35,600 nt of DNA from Deltaproteobacteria bacterium. Lineage in GTDB: Bacteria > Desulfobacterota > Desulfomonilia > Desulfomonilales > Desulfomonilaceae. A model generated the notes under the pieces. The model worked only from the letters and a program-made list of their open reading frames with translations. It was not told the origin of the DNA and made no database searches. Location: contig JAMCYH010000004.1 in assembly GCA_023474025.1 (NCBI GenBank), positions 1-35,600 of the forward strand. The letters run 5' to 3'. The position numbers and the translations under genes are program-made. Numbering within the stretch: position 1 is the stretch's first letter; each line of letters begins with the position of its first letter. Shown here piece by piece: positions 1-9,850 of this stretch.

Positions 1-127
1 GTCGCCGGCACGGACATAACCCTAGCCGGTAGGGAAATTACTGTGCAATTTTATGACAAGAAGACATCTCCGGAACAAATCAAAAAAGTTATAGAAAAAG
101 CTGGATATCCTGTGAAATCTGACGGTC
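1..127 (+). repeat. Exact direct repeat, copy 1 (window edge)
   Basis: Bases 1-127 are identical to 331-457. The copies first differ at 128 (a) versus 458 (t). The offset is 330 bases (110 codons), so the repeat is in frame and encodes the second half of an HMA domain. Because it starts at base 1, the true left limit of the repeat is unknown. Confidence 0.97.
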
Positions 128-1050
128 AAGACAAAGAGAAAAAGATAACTACGCGAAAACTATACCAAATACTGGCAGCATTTACCGTTCTCTCAGTTGC
201 TGCGACAGGTGGATATTTCGTTTATCGAATGCTTTCCGGCGATCTTGTAGCAACACGTTTTTCCGTGAACAACATGATTTGTCCCGCGTGTGCGATTACG
301 ATAAAGGAAGCGACGGAAAAGGCTCCCGGAGTCGCCGGCACGGACATAACCCTAGCCGGTAGGGAAATTACTGTGCAATTTTATGACAAGAAGACATCTC
401 CGGAACAAATCAAAAAAGTTATAGAAAAAGCTGGATATCCTGTGAAATCTGACGGTCTTTTCAAGCTAGCCTCAAGAGGGAAAAATGATGTTTTAATCGC
501 TAGAGTGAACGACCGCCCAATTTTGACGCCTGATCTAAAAACCCCTCTGAATGTCGATCTAAGATCCCCCGGATCCTCCAATTTACCTTCAGCGTTTTTC
601 TCTACGGTTGGAAAGGAAATCCTGCTACAGGCCGCTGACAAGGAGAATGTGATCATTCAACCCCAGGAAATTGAAGCTGAAATACGAAATATAATGGAAC
701 GACAGACTATGACCGAAGATGAGTTGAAACAGAAAGTCAAAGAACAATTCGGATCTTTCGAGAAGTTTTCACAGGTAGTTGGACAACGCCTTGGGATTCA
801 AAAGCTATTAGAAGAAAACATTCCTGAACAGATCCAGGATCCTGCTCAGCGAAGCCAAAAGACCATCGAATTGATTGGCGAACTTTTCAAAAACTCGAAC
901 GTAACAATTTTTGATCCGATCATCCGTGAGCAGGTCCATGCCGCAGCAGGACAAGATGACTGGAAAGTGTTCTGGCCACGCATGATAGCGGCTGACACTG
1001 ACCTTAATCGTCTAGTCAATCAATCCAATTCAGTCTTGCTATCAAAATAG
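1..1050 (+). CDS. HMA-TM-HMA-SurA-like chimeric metal-binding membrane protein (5' truncated)
   Basis: The frame is open from base 1 with no convincing start (the first GTG, at 43, lies inside a domain), so the gene begins upstream. The visible order is: the end of a heavy-metal-associated (HMA) domain; a basic stretch KEKKITTRK; a hydrophobic segment at about bases 166-235; a complete HMA domain with the metal motif MICPAC at about 276-293; then from about 478 a SurA-N-like region (VNDRPILTPDL, followed by charged helices) with no PPIase domain. By the positive-inside rule the first HMA would be cytoplasmic, and the second HMA plus the SurA-like part periplasmic. HMA domains bind Cu(I) or similar soft metals; SurA-N domains bind unfolded envelope proteins. 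A role in passing metal to periplasmic clients is inference. It leads the operon, with the DUF2318 gene 24 bases downstream. The two HMA copies are identical over 42 codons. Confidence 0.75.
   Translation, partial: VAGTDITLAGREITVQFYDKKTSPEQIKKVIEKAGYPVKSDGQDKEKKITTRKLYQILAAFTVLSVAATGGYFVYRMLSGDLVATRFSVNNMICPACAITIKEATEKAPGVAGTDITLAGREITVQFYDKKTSPEQIKKVIEKAGYPVKSDGLFKLASRGKNDVLIARVNDRPILTPDLKTPLNVDLRSPGSSNLPSAFFSTVGKEILLQAADKENVIIQPQEIEAEIRNIMERQTMTEDELKQKVKEQFGSFEKFSQVVGQRLGIQKLLEENIPEQIQDPAQRSQKTIELIGELFKNSNVTIFDPIIREQVHAAAGQDDWKVFWPRMIAADTDLNRLVNQSNSVLLSK
331..457 (+). repeat. Exact direct repeat, copy 2
   Basis: This is the second copy of the 127-base repeat, inside the complete HMA domain of the same gene. 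The perfect identity means either a very recent in-frame duplication or gene conversion, or a graph overlap left at a contig end by a k=127 assembler. Confidence 0.97.
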
Positions 1051-1074
1051 TTGTTTAAGAAAGGTAAATCTAAA

Positions 1075-1566
1075 ATGAAGAAAGTCAGTGATCTTACCAA
1101 AATCGCCTATGTGTTCATAGTTTCCACGCTAATCAGCCTGGCCGTTATTTCTTTAATTGCTGAAACAAACACGTACGCCGGAAACTTTACTGTCCCGGCC
1201 ATTGATGTCCAGCCCGGAAATGGTGTCTTTTCTTTCCCGGTTTCAGAGTTTCAGGACGGCAAAGCAAAACATTTCAGTTACAAAGTGTCACCGAATCAAT
1301 CGATCCGTTTTTTTGTAATCGAGAGTTCGGATGGTGTCATTAGGGCCGCATTTGACGCATGCGAAGTTTGTTATCGAGCGCAAAAGGGCTACGTGCAACA
1401 GGGTAATAATATGATCTGTATCAACTGTGGCCGCAAATTTAGGAGTGACAAGGTCAACGAAGTAACCGGCGGGTGCAATCCTTCCGCGTTGAAGAGAACT
1501 TTGAGAGATAACAAAGTGTTTATCACTGAGCAAGACGTCTTGGCCGGCGCAAAATACTTCAAGTAG
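1075..1566 (+). CDS. DUF2318 cysteine-rich membrane-anchored protein
   Basis: This 163-residue protein has an N-terminal hydrophobic segment (about residues 11-28) and a DUF2318 domain with CEVC (96-99), CINC (115-118) and GGC (132-134): five cysteines that could hold a metal or Fe-S cofactor. ATG 1075 is chosen over the in-frame TTG at 1051 because AGAAAGG lies about 10 bases before it. DUF2318 proteins sit beside MacB-like ABC permeases and ATPases in iron/copper acquisition loci such as the Campylobacter p19 cluster, and the next two genes here match that arrangement. The family's exact function is unsettled. In this operon a redox or metal-relay role on the periplasmic face is the reasonable inference. 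The stop is 13 bases before the permease start, so translation is probably coupled. Confidence 0.85.
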   Translation: MKKVSDLTKIAYVFIVSTLISLAVISLIAETNTYAGNFTVPAIDVQPGNGVFSFPVSEFQDGKAKHFSYKVSPNQSIRFFVIESSDGVIRAAFDACEVCYRAQKGYVQQGNNMICINCGRKFRSDKVNEVTGGCNPSALKRTLRDNKVFITEQDVLAGAKYFK

Positions 1567-1579
1567 AAAGGACTCACTA

Positions 1580-2737
1580 ATGAAGCTGCATAACATAGCG
1601 ATTAACAATCTGAGGCGCCGGAAAGCCAAAGTATGTTTTCTGGTTATGGGGTTACTTGTTGGTGTGGCCTCTGTTGTGGCGCTGCTATCGATAACACAAT
1701 CCCTGGCCGAAGATATGGTCCATAAAATGGACGAATTCGGAGCTAACATTCTGATTATACCGAAAGCTGAAGGGCTTTCACTGAACTATGGAGGCATTGA
1801 TCTTGGGGGTTTGTCTTTTGGCCAGAAGGAAATCTCACAAGAAGACCTGGCCAAGATAAAGACGATCGACAATGCGGCCAATATAAGGCTGGTAAGCCCT
1901 AAGGTTCTCGACGTCTTTGAAATGAATGGACAAAAAGCGCTTGCGGTTGGTGTTGATTTTCCTTCTGAACTTGCCTTGAAAAAGTGGTGGGTAATTAATG
2001 GAACCACCCCGAAGTCAGACTCCGAAGTGATTTTGGGCCGTGACGCCGCCGTAAAACTTGGGGTGAATGTTGGTTCAAGATTGGATATAAAAGGCTCCGA
2101 ATTATGGGTTTCGGGCGTCCTGGATACCACAGGATCGCAGGATGACAGTCTGGTTTTCATGCCGCTCCCGGTCTCCCAGAAGATCTTCGGGAAGGAAGGC
2201 AAGATTTCGATGGTTGAGATTGCGGCATTGTGCAAAAACTGCCCGATCTCTGACATTGTCAACCAAATTTCAGCCATTATTCCGAATGGTAAAGTAACTG
2301 CTGTCCAACAGGTGGTGGCAGGCAGGATGGACACCTTAAATCATTTTCAAAGATTCTCGCTCGGGATTTCGGGACTTGTGTTGCTCGTCGGCGCCATGGT
2401 CGTCTTCGTTACAATGATGGGGAGCGTTAATGAGCGGACACGAGAAATTGGGATATTTAGCGCAATTGGTTTCCGCAGCTCTCATATAATGAAAATAATA
2501 TTGCTCGAGGCCTTTGTGGTTTCCTTTTCAGCCGGACTGTTGGGGTATCTAGTGGGGATCGGGGTAACATATGGGACCTTGAGGGCCATTTCGGACCATG
2601 CTCCCAATTTAACGATCGATTACTCCATGGCGGCCGGATCGGTATTTCTTGCAGTTTTGGTGGGCTTGCTAGCCTCTTTCTACCCTGCCCGATCCGCTGC
2701 GGCTATGGACCCAAGCGAAGCGTTACGCACCCTTTAG
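1580..2737 (+). CDS. ABC transporter permease, FtsX/MacB type
   Basis: This 385-residue protein has the MacB/FtsX layout: an N-terminal membrane segment (about 20-42), a roughly 200-residue periplasmic MacB_PCD-like domain, and three C-terminal membrane segments (about 255-283, 305-335, 348-370) with the FtsX motif NERTREIGIFSAIGFRS. AAAGGA precedes the ATG. The periplasmic domain contains CKNC (near base 2230), uncommon in generic MacB permeases and possibly metal- or thiol-active. Such proteins use ATP for mechanotransmission rather than classical import. With the DUF2318 gene upstream and the ATPase 9 bases downstream it resembles the Cj1661-1663-type module of metal loci. LolC/E and macrolide exporters share the fold, but the neighbours argue for metal handling. 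The substrate is unknown. Confidence 0.85.
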   Translation: MKLHNIAINNLRRRKAKVCFLVMGLLVGVASVVALLSITQSLAEDMVHKMDEFGANILIIPKAEGLSLNYGGIDLGGLSFGQKEISQEDLAKIKTIDNAANIRLVSPKVLDVFEMNGQKALAVGVDFPSELALKKWWVINGTTPKSDSEVILGRDAAVKLGVNVGSRLDIKGSELWVSGVLDTTGSQDDSLVFMPLPVSQKIFGKEGKISMVEIAALCKNCPISDIVNQISAIIPNGKVTAVQQVVAGRMDTLNHFQRFSLGISGLVLLVGAMVVFVTMMGSVNERTREIGIFSAIGFRSSHIMKIILLEAFVVSFSAGLLGYLVGIGVTYGTLRAISDHAPNLTIDYSMAAGSVFLAVLVGLLASFYPARSAAAMDPSEALRTL

Positions 2738-2746
2738 GAGACAATC

Positions 2747-3442
2747 ATGAATTATATAGAAGCATTAAATGTCCGGAAAGAATTTGGAGAAAACGACTCT
2801 AAAATAGTCGCCGTGGACTCAGTTGATCTATCCATTGAACAGGGAGAATTCATTTCAATTATGGGAGAGTCCGGGTCCGGGAAAAGCACCTTGCTTTCGA
2901 TGTTGGGAGGCTTGCTCAGTCCAACTAGTGGATTCATAAAAATTGAAGGAATAGATATCTATTCCTTGAAACGAAACAAACTGGCGGACTTCAGACGCGA
3001 ATTCATGGGTTTCATTTTCCAATCATTTCAGTTAGTCCCGTACTTAAACGTAATTGAGAACGTACAATTGCCTTTGGCCATAACACATCACTCTGAAAAA
3101 GAGAAAAGGAGACTGGCTCGCTCAGCCCTCGAAAAAATAGGTCTCAAGGACAAAGCTTTCAGGCTCCCGAACCAGATCTCTGGAGGTGAACAGGAACGAG
3201 TCGCCATAGCGAGGGCGGTTGTAAACGAACCACCGATACTATTTGCAGATGAACCGACCGGCAACCTCGATTCTAGAAATTCTGCTGAAGTAATGAAGCT
3301 TTTGATGAAGCTGAATTCCGAAGGACAGACAATAGTAATGGTGACTCATAGCAGGACCAACGCTGAATACGCTCACAGAATAGTAGAAGTGGCGGATGGA
3401 CACCTTAAAACCGTAGAAGCTCCCATCAAACTGGCTGTATAG
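2747..3442 (+). CDS. ABC transporter ATP-binding protein (LolD/MacB type)
   Basis: This 231-residue nucleotide-binding subunit is the normal length for the LolD/MacB class. Visible motifs are Walker A GESGSGKST, a Q-loop in IFQSFQLVPYLNV, signature SGGEQERVAIARA, Walker B ILFADEPTGNLD and the switch histidine in VTHS. The signature has E where LSGGQQQR is usual, a conservative change. The gene starts 9 bases after the permease and ends 12 bases before the adaptor, so it should energise the upstream FtsX-like permease at the cytoplasmic face of the inner membrane. The family call is secure; the transported substrate is not known. Confidence 0.92.
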   Translation: MNYIEALNVRKEFGENDSKIVAVDSVDLSIEQGEFISIMGESGSGKSTLLSMLGGLLSPTSGFIKIEGIDIYSLKRNKLADFRREFMGFIFQSFQLVPYLNVIENVQLPLAITHHSEKEKRRLARSALEKIGLKDKAFRLPNQISGGEQERVAIARAVVNEPPILFADEPTGNLDSRNSAEVMKLLMKLNSEGQTIVMVTHSRTNAEYAHRIVEVADGHLKTVEAPIKLAV

Positions 3443-3454
3443 CACGGAGGGCCT

Positions 3455-5497
3455 ATGAACACGGTGGATTCGAAAACCAGTCAGAAAATGAGGAAAGTAT
3501 TGTTGGCAATAGGACTAATTTTGGTGTCTTTCCTGATCGGATATTTCTATTCCAGGATTTCGACGCCTGTAAATACTGCCAACACACCGGTAAGCCACGA
3601 CGTTCGAGTTGACCGTGAGGGGGGGACCCCGACGAATAGACAACATTCCCATAACCACGATCAAGGCACGGTGTGGACATGCTCGATGCATCCTCAGATT
3701 CGTATGCCCGGTCCCGGCAAGTGCCCTATTTGCGGTATGGACCTAATCCCAGTTGAAGACGACAATTCAGAATCGGCGAATGGATCGAACCTCACTACTC
3801 TGACGCTATCCGAGACCGCGAAGAAACTCGCAGAAATCGAAACCACGGAAGTGAAAAGGGGCAGGGCTAAAGCGCTAGTATCAATGGTCGGAATGGTCTT
3901 TGAGGATGAAACTCGCTCCGCCGTAATAACTTCACGCATCGATGGAAGGCTTGACGCCGTTTACGTCGACTATACAGGCGAAAAGGTTAACCAGGGTGAT
4001 CCCCTGGTCAAAATATGGAGTCCCACCCTGATCAAAGGTCAAGTCGAATTGTTTGAGACCATAAGAAGTGATCCAAATGACACGTCGCTTATCAAGGGGG
4101 CGGAAGAAAAGTTGATACAATATGGATTGGATCGTGAACAAATCGACAGGATTGAGGCTCAAAAGCGTCCTACCCTTTATGTCACGCTCAAAGCCCCAAT
4201 CAGTGGCATCGTGACAAAAAAGAACGCTCTCCTTGGACAGTTTGTAAAAGAGGGAACCGAAATGTTTGTCATTGATGACCTTTCTAACGTATGGGTCAAA
4301 ATGGACGCGTACGAAACCGATCTTCCATGGATACGGTACGGTCAGGACATCACATTCAGTACTCCCTCCGTCCCTGGCAAGACATTTAGAGGCAAGGTGC
4401 TCTTCATCGATCCGACTCTGGATAAGAAGACTCGGTCAGTAAAAATTAGGGTTGAGGCCCTCAATCCGGACTATCTTCTGAAACCTGGAATGTTCGTCAG
4501 CGCAGAACTGGAAGCTGAACTGGATGATCAAGGCAGGGTTGTCAAGCCAGAGTGGGCCGGAAAATATATTTGCCCTGTTCACCCCAGAGACGAAGCCAGT
4601 TCTCCCGGAGTATGTCCGGATAGTAAAATGCCATTGAGACCCGCTTCATCCTATGGCTATGCCGATGATAAGGATTCAAGACCACCCTTGCTAATTCCCA
4701 ATACTGCGCCCCTTATCACCGGGAAACGCTCGATAGTCTACGTGGAGGTCCCCGGGGCTTCCAGCCCTACTTATGAGTTGCGTGAGGTCACGCTGGGGCC
4801 GCGCGTTGGAGACCATTACATTGTGGACAAGGGACTGAAGGAAGGCGAGCGGGTTGTGACCAAAGGGGCGTTCAAGATTGACAGTACGATGCAGATCCTG
4901 GGGAAAGCTAGCATGATGGCTCCCATGGGAAATATTGCTTCTGCGGAAAACAAACCACCGCTTGATCAAAAGACTGAAGAAAAATCAGGTGAAGAGACTA
5001 TCGAAAAACTAACCGCTCCCAAGGGTTTTATCTCCCGGTTGAATCCCGTTTATAACGATTATCTCAAGATAAAGGACGCTATTAAGGAGAAAAAACCCGA
5101 CGCTGCAATATTGTCTGGAACAGATTTGATAAAAGACCTCAAAAATCTTGACAGCTCACTGCTTGACGCAAAACAAAAGAAGAAATGGAATCAGCTATCA
5201 AACAGCATTTTGGCTGCGGGCGCCAAAATTACAAATGCTCGGGACCCAATTGATCAACGCCGGTTTTTCAATTCTCTTTCTGAGGCGGCGGTCAAGACTC
5301 TGATGACCTTCGGCCAAATGACAGACTCCGATTTGACCGTTTTTTATTGCCCAAAAGCCTTTGATGGCGAAGGGTTTTACTGGATTGGCAAAGGAACAGA
5401 CGATACAAATCCGGTTTCTGAAACGACCGCTGAGACCGAAGAAAAAACGACTAATTGCGCCGAACTGGTCGAAAAGATTTCTCCTGACAAGCCTTGA
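3455..5497 (+). CDS. cusB: CusB-like RND periplasmic adaptor with several metal-binding modules
   Basis: This is a 680-residue membrane-fusion protein of a heavy-metal RND pump, linking the inner-membrane pump to an outer-membrane channel. It has a membrane anchor (14-31), a His-rich patch HSHNH (64-68), a heavy-metal-binding domain with CSMHP (76-80) and CPICGMDL (90-97), then barrel-sandwich and beta-barrel regions (about 150-350). A second, degenerate copy of that module follows, with CPVHP (373-377) and CPDSKMPL (387-394). The C-terminal region (about 528-655) looks like DUF3347, with YCPKAFDGEGFYWIGKG. CusB proteins without such fusions are near 400 residues, so this one is greatly extended. 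GGAGG precedes ATG 3455. The cusA-like gene starts 18 bases after its stop. The extra modules suggest metal capture or sensing in the periplasm; Cu(I) or Ag(I) is the likely substrate. Confidence 0.9.
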   Translation: MNTVDSKTSQKMRKVLLAIGLILVSFLIGYFYSRISTPVNTANTPVSHDVRVDREGGTPTNRQHSHNHDQGTVWTCSMHPQIRMPGPGKCPICGMDLIPVEDDNSESANGSNLTTLTLSETAKKLAEIETTEVKRGRAKALVSMVGMVFEDETRSAVITSRIDGRLDAVYVDYTGEKVNQGDPLVKIWSPTLIKGQVELFETIRSDPNDTSLIKGAEEKLIQYGLDREQIDRIEAQKRPTLYVTLKAPISGIVTKKNALLGQFVKEGTEMFVIDDLSNVWVKMDAYETDLPWIRYGQDITFSTPSVPGKTFRGKVLFIDPTLDKKTRSVKIRVEALNPDYLLKPGMFVSAELEAELDDQGRVVKPEWAGKYICPVHPRDEASSPGVCPDSKMPLRPASSYGYADDKDSRPPLLIPNTAPLITGKRSIVYVEVPGASSPTYELREVTLGPRVGDHYIVDKGLKEGERVVTKGAFKIDSTMQILGKASMMAPMGNIASAENKPPLDQKTEEKSGEETIEKLTAPKGFISRLNPVYNDYLKIKDAIKEKKPDAAILSGTDLIKDLKNLDSSLLDAKQKKKWNQLSNSILAAGAKITNARDPIDQRRFFNSLSEAAVKTLMTFGQMTDSDLTVFYCPKAFDGEGFYWIGKGTDDTNPVSETTAETEEKTTNCAELVEKISPDKP

Positions 5498-5515
5498 AGC
5501 GTATGGCGGTGAAAC

Positions 5516-8500
5516 ATGGATTCGATTACATCAAGATCTGAAAATCAGCATGAAAAACGCGAGGGGCTTTTCTCCAAATTCATGCGTTTCTGGATAGAAA
5601 ATAAGCTATTTATGGCTTTGGTCCTGGGCTTTACTCTTCTTGGCGGGATTTCGGTCGCGCCATTTGACTGGAATATTTCATGGCTTCCAAGGTTCCCTGT
5701 CCCGGTAGACGCAATTCCGGACATTGGAGAAAACCAGCAGATAGTATTTACCACATGGGAAGGAAGGTCCCCTAAAGACATTGAGGACCAGATAACCTAC
5801 CCGTTGACTGTCGCTTTACTGGGTGTGCCCGGTGTCAAGGTAATCAGAAGCGATTCTTTCTTCGGATTTTCCACGATTTACATAATCTTCAAAGAGAACA
5901 TAGACTTCTACTGGTCAAGGTCCAGAATTCTTGAGAAATTGAATTCGCTGCAGCCAGGCACATTGCCTGAAGGGGTCCAACCCGTTTTAGGTCCCGACGC
6001 AACCGCTCTAGGTCAGGTCTTTTGGTACACATTGGAGGGAGAGGGTTTCGGACTGGACGAATTGAGGACTATTCAGGATTACATCGTCAAATATTCCCTA
6101 CAATCCGCAGGTGGGGTGAGCGAAGTCGCTTCCGTAGGGGGATACGTCAAAGAGTACCAGGTTGACGTGAACCCGGACGCAATGAGGGCTCACAACGTAA
6201 CCTTACCGGAAGTCTATTCAGCGGTGCAAATGTCGAATATCGACGTCGGCGCCGGGGTTATTGAAGTAAATGGCGCGGAATACAGTATTAGGGGACTTGG
6301 ATTCATAAAGTCGGTTCAAGATCTTGAAAACAGTGTTGTTAAGGTCAACAACAACGTTCCTTTGTTCATAAAGGACGTGGCAACGGTTTCTCTAGGCCCT
6401 GCGATGAGGCGCGGGGCACTGGACAAAGAAGGCGCTGAAGCTGTGGGTGGTGTGGTTGTCGTCAGATTTTCTGAAAACCCTCTGCAGGTGATCAAAAATG
6501 TAAAGAAGAAAATCGCAGAAATTGGCCCGGGCCTTCCAACAAAAAAGCTTGCTGACGGAAGAATATCCCAGGTTAAAATTGTTCCATTCTACGACCGTAC
6601 CAATCTGATCTACGAAACACTGGACACACTTAACCGAGCGCTGCATGAAGAGATCCTGGTCTGTATAATCGTCGTCATCGTAATGATGAACAATATTGTT
6701 GGTTCATTGCTAATATCCTCGGTGCTACCTCTAGCGGTTCTTTTGACATTTGTTATCATGAAATTCGTGGGCGTGGATGCGAATATCATGGCCCTATCGG
6801 GCATTGCCATCGCAATTGGGGTAATGGTCGATATGGGGATAATTCTGTGTGAAAACATCCTGAGACGTATAGAAGAAGCCCCCAGTGATTCGAGCATGTT
6901 TGACATTGTTCACGCCTCGGCGGTAGAAGTTGGCGGCGCTGTTGTAACATCGTCTCTCACGACGATAATTTCGTTCTTGCCTGTTTTCACATTAACAGGG
7001 CCCGAGGGTAAACTATTCGGGCCTGTAGCCTACACCAAGACTTTTGCTGTAGCGGCGGCGTTAGTCCTGGCCCTGGCTCTGGTTCCGCCTCTGGCTCATC
7101 TAGCGTTTACGCGAAGGAACATCAGCAAACATATACGATATACGGTTTATTTGATTGTTGGTTTAGTGGGAATATGGCTGGGGCTATCGGTTTCATGGCT
7201 CATAGGCGTGCCACTTATATTTGTTTCAATTGTAAAAATCATCTCGCGAACCCTACCTGAAAGGATTCAAAGCAAGGTCCCAATCCTGTTCAACATAATC
7301 GCTCTGATTTTCGTAACTTATCTGTTAACGGCGCATTGGTTACCATTGGGGCTGGAGAAAGGGCTTGTCAGAAACTTCATATTCGCTTCTGGAATAATCT
7401 TCGGCCTTCTAGCGGTGCGAAAAATTTTCACCGCTAACTACAGGGTCATACTCTCGTGGAGTCTGACCCATAAACCGCTGTTCTTGTCCTTACCAATATC
7501 ACTAGTAATTTTTGGATGTGTGATCTGGCTTGGATTCGATCGAGTATTCGGATTCATTCCATGGACAGTGGACAAGGCTGTTTCGACATTTTCTGTCAAC
7601 TCGGTCGCGAAGCCTACCCCTGATTTGAATAAGGAAAGTCTGATCAGGTCTACGCGGCTATGGTCAAGCCTGGCGCACAAGTTTCCAGGATTGGGAAAGG
7701 AGTTCATGCCTGACCTTGATGAGGGATCATTTCTCTACATGCCGACAATGATGCCACACGCATCGATCGGTGAAGCTCTCAATATCCTCCAGAAACAGGA
7801 CGTCGCTATTCGATCCATCCCGGAAGTTGAGTCGGTTGTTGGGAAAATCGGCAGAGTAGAAAGCGCATTGGACCCAGCGCCGGTTTCTATGATTGAAACC
7901 GTTATCACCTATTTGCCGGAATATAAAATCGATCCTGCGACTGGACAACAAGAGATTGACCCGAAAACAGGCAAACCGATCCGAAACTGGCGACCTGAAA
8001 TCAAAACCCCCAATGACATCTGGAAACAAATTATCAAAGTATCTAAAGTCCCTGGAGTTACATCGGCGCCCAAGCTTCAACCTATAGCGGCTCGAATAGT
8101 TATGCTTCAGAGCGGTATGAGGGCAGCTATGGGCGTTAAGATAAAGGGGAAGGATATTCATGAAATTGAGAAACTGGGGTTCGAGATTGAAAAATATCTT
8201 AAAGAGGTCCCGTCGATAGATCCCTCCACCGTGGTAGCCGATAGGGTTGTAGGAAACCCATACCTTGAAATAGCTATCGATAGAAAGGCCATCGCCAGAT
8301 ATGGTTTAGCGATAAAGGATGTTCAGGATATTATAGAAACTGCTATCGGTGGCAAGAAAATCACTACAACCGTTGAGGGACGGGAACGATATCCGGTGCG
8401 GGTAAGATACCAGAGAGAACTTAGAGATTCACTGGAGTCGCTTAAGAAAATCCTCGTGACCAACAAGGAGGGAATTCAAGTTCCGTTATCTGAGGTAGCT

Positions 8501-9295
8501 ACAATCAACTACACTCCTGGTCCAATGTCTATAAAATCGGAAGACACATTTCTCACTAGTTATGTTCTATTTGATAAGAAACCGGGGTTTGCGGAAGTCA
8601 ACGTTGTTGAAGCCGCTGACAGTTTCCTTAAATACAAAATAAAGACTGGCGAATTAAAACTTCCCCCGGGGTCTTCAATAACTTTCGCGGGGTCATATGA
8701 AAACCAGGTCCGTTCGGAACAAACATTGAGAATTGTAATACCAATAGCCCTCTGCCTTATTTTTACAGTTCTCTATTTGCAGTTCCATTCCATTCCGACT
8801 TCGCTTAATGTTTTTTCCGGCATATTTGTTGCCTGGTCCGGCGGGTTCATGATGCTGTGGCTTTACTCTCAGCCCTGGTTCCTCGATTTCAGCGTGTTCG
8901 GGGTCAACATGAGGGAACTGTTTCAGGTACATCCCTACAACTTGAGCGTGGCGGTCTGGGTTGGGTTCCTTGCCCTGTTCGGTATAGCCACAAATGATGG
9001 GGTCATTTATTCAACTTACCTGGACCAGGTGTTTGCAAGACATTCGTTTCATTCCATTCATGAAATTAGAGAAGCGACAGTTGAGGCCGGCATGAGACGA
9101 GTTCGGCCTGCTCTGATGACCACAGCGACAACTATACTTGCGTTAATACCGGTGCTCACTTCCCAGGGAAAAGGCGCGGACGTAATGGTCCCCATGGCTC
9201 TTCCGAGTTTTGGCGGGATGTGTATTGATATAATTACCATATTTGTTGTCCCTAACATTTATTGTCTTGTCAAAGAGATTCAGTTCAGAAAATGA
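5516..9295 (+). CDS. cusA: CusA-like heavy-metal RND efflux pump, enlarged
   Basis: This 1259-residue inner-membrane proton-driven pump of the HME-RND family is about 200 residues longer than E. coli CusA. Family marks include DAIPDIGENQ near the N-terminus, GVMVDMGIILCEN in the TM4 region, FMPDLDEGSFLYMP and GIATNDGVIYSTYLDQ. Methionines occur in LYMPTMMP, SMIETVI and IVMLQSGM, at or near the positions of the CusA copper ladder, which supports Cu(I)/Ag(I) over divalent metals (CzcA type). Extra hydrophobic segments between about residues 540 and 660 account for much of the added length. The gene follows the cusB-like gene directly and precedes a NosL-like gene. No CusC/TolC-type outer-membrane factor is present in the window. 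Confidence 0.92.
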   Translation: MDSITSRSENQHEKREGLFSKFMRFWIENKLFMALVLGFTLLGGISVAPFDWNISWLPRFPVPVDAIPDIGENQQIVFTTWEGRSPKDIEDQITYPLTVALLGVPGVKVIRSDSFFGFSTIYIIFKENIDFYWSRSRILEKLNSLQPGTLPEGVQPVLGPDATALGQVFWYTLEGEGFGLDELRTIQDYIVKYSLQSAGGVSEVASVGGYVKEYQVDVNPDAMRAHNVTLPEVYSAVQMSNIDVGAGVIEVNGAEYSIRGLGFIKSVQDLENSVVKVNNNVPLFIKDVATVSLGPAMRRGALDKEGAEAVGGVVVVRFSENPLQVIKNVKKKIAEIGPGLPTKKLADGRISQVKIVPFYDRTNLIYETLDTLNRALHEEILVCIIVVIVMMNNIVGSLLISSVLPLAVLLTFVIMKFVGVDANIMALSGIAIAIGVMVDMGIILCENILRRIEEAPSDSSMFDIVHASAVEVGGAVVTSSLTTIISFLPVFTLTGPEGKLFGPVAYTKTFAVAAALVLALALVPPLAHLAFTRRNISKHIRYTVYLIVGLVGIWLGLSVSWLIGVPLIFVSIVKIISRTLPERIQSKVPILFNIIALIFVTYLLTAHWLPLGLEKGLVRNFIFASGIIFGLLAVRKIFTANYRVILSWSLTHKPLFLSLPISLVIFGCVIWLGFDRVFGFIPWTVDKAVSTFSVNSVAKPTPDLNKESLIRSTRLWSSLAHKFPGLGKEFMPDLDEGSFLYMPTMMPHASIGEALNILQKQDVAIRSIPEVESVVGKIGRVESALDPAPVSMIETVITYLPEYKIDPATGQQEIDPKTGKPIRNWRPEIKTPNDIWKQIIKVSKVPGVTSAPKLQPIAARIVMLQSGMRAAMGVKIKGKDIHEIEKLGFEIEKYLKEVPSIDPSTVVADRVVGNPYLEIAIDRKAIARYGLAIKDVQDIIETAIGGKKITTTVEGRERYPVRVRYQRELRDSLESLKKILVTNKEGIQVPLSEVATINYTPGPMSIKSEDTFLTSYVLFDKKPGFAEVNVVEAADSFLKYKIKTGELKLPPGSSITFAGSYENQVRSEQTLRIVIPIALCLIFTVLYLQFHSIPTSLNVFSGIFVAWSGGFMMLWLYSQPWFLDFSVFGVNMRELFQVHPYNLSVAVWVGFLALFGIATNDGVIYSTYLDQVFARHSFHSIHEIREATVEAGMRRVRPALMTTATTILALIPVLTSQGKGADVMVPMALPSFGGMCIDIITIFVVPNIYCLVKEIQFRK

Positions 9296-9328
9296 TTTAA
9301 TGATGAAGAAATGAAAGGAGAATGCATC

Positions 9329-9850
9329 ATGCAAAAGACTTGTAGAAGGTTCGTTTTGGTGATTGGCGTTCTAGTCGTAATGCTTTCAGCGCCCGTTTAC
9401 TCCAACGCGACCCAAAATGTAGAACTTCCAGATGGTTCCAAAATTCAACTTCCGTTTTCGTGCCCAATTTGTGAAATGAAGGTTGAAGCCAACATAGGTG
9501 TCCTTGGGGCGCTAGTTTTTGCCAATGGAAAAGTAGTCGCTTTTGATAATATTTCAGAACTTTTTCGCTATTTGTTGTCACCCGATACGTTCGGGTTCAC
9601 CCCGAAGGACCTTAAGAAAGCGTTCGTATTGGATCATGATTCCAAGAAATTCATCGAAGCCAAAGATGCTGTATACGTGATTGGTCCAGAAATGGCCCAC
9701 ATGATGGGACGGGAAATGGAAGCCTTTTCGAACAAGGCGGCCGCTGAGAAGTTCATTGGCGGAAACAATGATAAAAAGATACTTGCTTTTTCTGAAGTCT
9801 CTCTTAAAGATGTAGCTCCGAAAAAGAAGATGTTAAAGATGAAACATTAA
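9329..9850 (+). CDS. NosL-like periplasmic copper-binding protein
   Basis: This 173-residue exported protein has a signal-type N-terminus (about residues 6-27, no lipobox cysteine in place) and a NosL-like domain: CPICEM (45-50), NGKVVAFDNISELFRYL, an FVLDHDSKKFIEAKDAVYV-type core, then a Met/His cluster with M122, H124, M125, M126 and M130. NosL proteins bind Cu(I) and supply copper to nitrous oxide reductase, and many homologues occur without NosZ. ATG 9329 is preferred over 9311 because AAAGGAG at 9314-9320 sits 8 bases before it. Most NosL proteins are lipoproteins; this one appears to be cleaved and soluble, or anchored by its N-terminus. It is the last gene of the metal operon. A copper chaperone role is well supported by the motifs, but the client is unknown. 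Confidence 0.82.
   Translation: MQKTCRRFVLVIGVLVVMLSAPVYSNATQNVELPDGSKIQLPFSCPICEMKVEANIGVLGALVFANGKVVAFDNISELFRYLLSPDTFGFTPKDLKKAFVLDHDSKKFIEAKDAVYVIGPEMAHMMGREMEAFSNKAAAEKFIGGNNDKKILAFSEVSLKDVAPKKKMLKMKH

Follow-up and report, generated by a model that had tools for sequence, protein, structure and literature searches.

A conserved TM-HMA-SurA-like protein encoded ahead of DUF2318/ABC genes in Desulfobacterota, and the probable contig-end repeat that gave it an apparent second HMA domain

The best-studied DUF2318 system serves iron: Campylobacter jejuni requires the DUF2318 protein FetA, together with FetBCD, to grow normally when iron is low, and the biochemical role of FetA/FetBCD is unknown (PMC10783030, PMC6083913), as is the substrate of the ABC part of the module (PMC6083913). 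The CsoR copper regulon of gut Firmicutes has been inferred to include DUF2318 and HMA proteins (PMC4938975). The protein that we describe here, from a member of the Desulfomonilaceae, is encoded directly ahead of a DUF2318 gene and resembles described proteins in its parts. It shares with MerP and the periplasmic HMA carriers the HMA fold, the Cys pair and a predicted extracytoplasmic place, and MerP is its best NCBIfam match (TIGR02052); however, it is membrane-anchored and fused to a SurA-like domain, it scores below the curated cut-off (59.7 against 92.55) and so does not qualify as a MerP, and no mer genes were seen in its operon, where the neighbours are DUF2318/ABC/Cus genes. With SurA, PEB4 and Cj1289 it has the N-terminal SurA module in common, by profile and by fold, but it is without the PPIase and carries a TM anchor and an HMA domain in front. 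The copper chaperone for SOD1 (CCS) likewise combines, in one fusion, an HMA domain with a domain that binds its partner; this is an analogy only, the Foldseek matches to CCS covering its HMA part, and the CCS partner domain, unlike the one here, is SOD-like and cytosolic. We found no description of an HMA-SurA fusion in the literature searched (by title), and the TM-HMA-SurA combination is apparently undescribed, as far as could be found.

The window, meaning the whole stretch of 35,600 bases analysed, comprises bases 1-35600 of contig C191 of its genome, so that the window starts at contig base 1. Its first ORF (1-1050, + strand) is open at the 5' end, and the original prediction had read it as HMA-TM-HMA-SurA, with the two HMA domains facing opposite sides of the membrane and possibly relaying metal across it. 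It can be seen that the upstream HMA stretch is a repeat:

1..127, + strand: exact copy of 331..457 at the contig end, most likely an assembly repeat and not a separate HMA domain

The identity of 1-127 with 331-457 is base for base, and the next bases differ (A against T). No more than the final ~42 residues of an HMA are encoded by the copy; it has no CxxC motif, and Pfam assigned it no HMA match of its own. We catalogued exact matches of at least 60 bases across 61 contigs (0.6 Mb) of this genome and found seven other contig ends with matches of exactly 126 bases (the copy in the window is 127 bases long), along with further contig-end copies of 87-122 bases. As a control, internal exact repeats were listed as well; 13 had both copies in one contig and two had them in different contigs, and apart from a single one of 752 bases none exceeded 116 bases. 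The 752-base exact direct repeat lies on contig C17 (6849-8350, locus L054 of genome G000), has an offset of 750 and is in frame within one long ORF. The repeat lengths at contig ends agree with assembly on a k-mer graph where k is close to 127 and contigs stop at shared k-mers.

The same trace, and a contig break at this place, would also be left by a genuine repeat that exceeds k. The 330-base TM+HMA unit could therefore have been duplicated in tandem and in frame, in the genome or in part of the population, giving TM-HMA-TM-HMA-SurA. The copy offset is divisible by three and the frame stays open, and other coding regions of the genome hold exact repeats, those inside one coding frame being in frame in all cases (C15, C17 and C43). 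However, an in-frame offset has a one-in-three chance anyway, exact 126-base copies also occur at unrelated contig ends, and the duplication is absent from every relative examined; moreover, it would leave the second HMA and the SurA-like domain in the cytoplasm unless the second TM failed to insert. We consider such a duplication, which would have to be very recent and peculiar to this genome, improbable; in all likelihood the 'first HMA' is a copied fragment at the broken contig end.

The start of the gene was found elsewhere in the assembly. When the genome was searched with window 1-460, the sole other place was the start of contig C211 (minus strand), which is identical to window 127-247, an overlap of 121 bases and not 126. 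The 5' end of the gene on C211 reads ATG, MSDERQMKKISLDTL, then QDKEKKITTRK; it is ortholog-like, is unlike window 1-127, and joins the window at base 127/128. A Cys-rich gene lies about 130 bases upstream on C211, at a distance equal to that in the relative L098. The true start of the gene is on C211, and the two pieces joined give 323 codons and a corrected protein of 323 residues, which runs from a cytoplasmic tail through one TM and one HMA (MICPAC) to the SurA-like domain:

Contig C211, start codon near C211 base 166, - strand: codons 1-15 of the gene (C211 reading)
127..1050, + strand: true part of the TM-HMA-SurA_N-like gene, codons 16-323 of 323 (C211 join, orthologs)
169..225, + strand: single transmembrane helix with positive residues on its N-terminal side, N-in and C-out (hydropathy/charge, structure model)
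259..438, + strand: sole HMA domain, MerP-like, with CxxC (CPAC) at 280-291 (Pfam, structure, alignment)
490..912, + strand: SurA_N-like chaperone region, no PPIase detected (Pfam, profile, fold)

Sixteen orthologs were identified in Desulfomonilaceae, the named relatives being Desulfomonile and other Desulfobacterota MAGs. All 15 that have complete 5' ends begin M(S/A)..(M/I)K..I and encode one TM followed by one HMA, and no HMA precedes the TM in any of these when frames are read stop to stop. Thus the membrane helix, the HMA domain after it and the SurA-like region of the original prediction stand, and the HMA domain in front of the helix does not. Read literally, window 1-1050 does translate into a protein with an HMA on either side of the membrane, but the one ahead of the TM is a CxxC-less copy at the contig end, C211 supplies a different 5' end and the arrangement is seen in no ortholog; with a full gene that holds one HMA, the relay falls for the family as a whole, and we regard its presence in this genome as extremely improbable. 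A false architecture arising from the contig end is thereby removed and a real, conserved one put in its place.

We examined the domains of the corrected protein individually. Residues 87-146 of the translated ORF 1-1050 (window 259-438) match Pfam HMA (PF00403) with 48.5 bits against a cut-off of 24.8, which places the domain in the HMA family; the CPAC motif with its Cys pair is invariant in the 15 family members aligned, and the fold matches MerP in Foldseek with a TM-score by target of 0.87-0.91. The structural model of window 127-1050 has a mean pLDDT of 81.7. For the C-terminal part, the Pfam SurA_N match of the window's own protein (residues 205-267) is weak and below the curated cut-off, and SurA_N_3 is at or over its cut-off in two members from other families. 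A profile of this part matches residues 6-131 of E. coli SurA (3.5e-5), and Foldseek matches it to SurA in BAM complexes (TM-score 0.64, E 8.3e-5). The C-terminal region is therefore a SurA N-terminal module by both profile and fold, and no PPIase family, parvulin included, was detected in Pfam scans, in agreement with the original prediction. Hydropathy and charge indicate one TM with the N-terminus inside, and therefore the HMA and SurA-like domains should both lie in the periplasm.

Downstream of the fusion gene, and upstream of it on C211, the following genes were found:

G000:C211 299-772, - strand: small protein of secreted type, rich in Cys, encoded ahead of the HMA-SurA gene
1075..1566, + strand: DUF2318/FtrD-like protein (PF10080), CxxC-x15-CxxC-x15-C
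1580..2737, + strand: FtsX/MacB-type ABC permease
2747..3442, + strand: LolD/MacB-type ABC ATPase
3455..5497, + strand: CusB-like adaptor with N-terminal HMBD and C-terminal DUF3347
5516..9295, + strand: CusA/CzcA-family RND pump (TIGR00914, above cut-off)
9311..9850, + strand: NosL-family protein (PF05573)

The Cys-rich protein, which has no Pfam match, is also encoded upstream in the relatives L098-L105, L111 and L015, and small, Cys-rich ORFs of a similar kind stand ahead of DUF2318 in other families (L151, L153, L158, L159, L160, L165 and L171). The DUF2318, permease and ATPase genes together make a Fet-like module, and the conserved set of Cys-rich secreted protein, TM-HMA-SurA, DUF2318/FtrD-like protein, FtsX-type permease and ATPase is related to the Campylobacter FetA-FetBC-FetD set and is followed here by CusB, CusA and NosL. 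In both, the DUF2318 protein has two CxxC motifs and a fifth Cys, and the ABC permease and ATPase genes are clustered with it (PMC10783030, PMC6083913). The sets differ in that there is one permease here and two in Campylobacter, the DUF2318 protein is short here and has eight TM there, and only here is there an HMA-SurA gene upstream and Cus and NosL genes downstream; in addition, no FetM, FetP or thioredoxin genes were seen adjoining the module here.

Given this relationship, the protein might serve iron uptake with the Fet-like DUF2318/ABC genes, CusA/CusB being merely adjacent, as would fit the need of C. jejuni for its DUF2318-ABC genes in normal low-iron growth (PMC10783030, PMC6083913). 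CusB/CusA directly follow the module in some relatives only, several others lacking them at that position. However, no homologue of fetM or p19 was noticed next to the genes (window 1-9850, C211 1-6000), NosL lies downstream here, and the Cys pair of an HMA domain suits soft metals. We therefore think a role in iron uptake rather unlikely. The metal is probably copper, as judged from the gene neighbourhood: we infer this link from CusA/CusB and NosL downstream, and from the DUF2318 and HMA proteins of the Firmicutes CsoR copper regulon.

Our best reading is that the protein would be a periplasmic chaperone of a soft metal, probably Cu(I), that is tethered to the membrane and serves the Fet-like DUF2318/ABC module. 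A short, positively charged cytoplasmic tail and one TM would tether it to the inner membrane; the HMA Cys pair would hold the metal in the periplasm and pass it to a neighbour, which may be the DUF2318 protein, NosL or CusB; and the SurA-like arm would dock onto this acceptor or keep it open. On balance we favour the explanation as a whole, namely a terminal repeat and a 323-residue, anchored periplasmic protein of soft-metal transfer, probably of Cu(I), within a Fet-like set. Metal delivery into folding cuproproteins, as originally proposed, is a putative role. A metal carrier and a holdase in front of the module would suggest metallation of a periplasmic acceptor, and the joining, within a single polypeptide, of predicted metal carriage to a foldase-like domain is a real and conserved feature. 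That the two are coupled, such that an acceptor in the DUF2318/ABC module would be loaded with metal and folded in one step across four Desulfobacterota families, is a speculative extension that we hold only tentatively.

A phylum-wide search recovered HMA-SurA fusions in three further families (f60, f83 and f100). The TM-HMA-SurA architecture is thus solidly real and conserved in four families of one phylum. Outside Desulfomonilaceae the fusions nearly always adjoin DUF2318/FtrD-like and FtsX-type permease genes, and each of the three families has members that do so: both matches are present in L117-L119 and L121-L123, and for L120 an ATPase-like match was all that was seen nearby. Among 29 DUF2318 loci, the fusion lies upstream in five, an HMA protein in five (L144, L147, L148, L150 and L154, where HMA alone fills the slot of the fusion) and a SurA-like protein without HMA in one (L166); a small Cys-rich protein is found upstream instead in several others. 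The repeated pairing of an HMA with a SurA-like domain in front of DUF2318/ABC sets, whether fused or not, offers a lead on the role of a poorly understood module.

It is plausible, though at somewhat less than even chances, that the SurA-like part is a dimerisation or docking arm with no chaperone activity, which would be compatible with either metal; the PPIase is lost and the match is limited to the N-terminal SurA module. However, the occurrence of a SurA-like protein without HMA in the same slot at L166 argues for some independent role of the domain.

We also noted that the fusions of L117, L119, L120, L121, L122 and L123 end in short Cys-containing tails (for example GCGGSCC or SGGCCG), which are absent from the Desulfomonilaceae fusions. 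The SurA-like protein encoded upstream of DUF2318 at L166 has N-terminal CxxC pairs, a TM and a Cys-rich tail (SSSCAGGCCG), and this tail resembles that of the f60 and f83 fusions.
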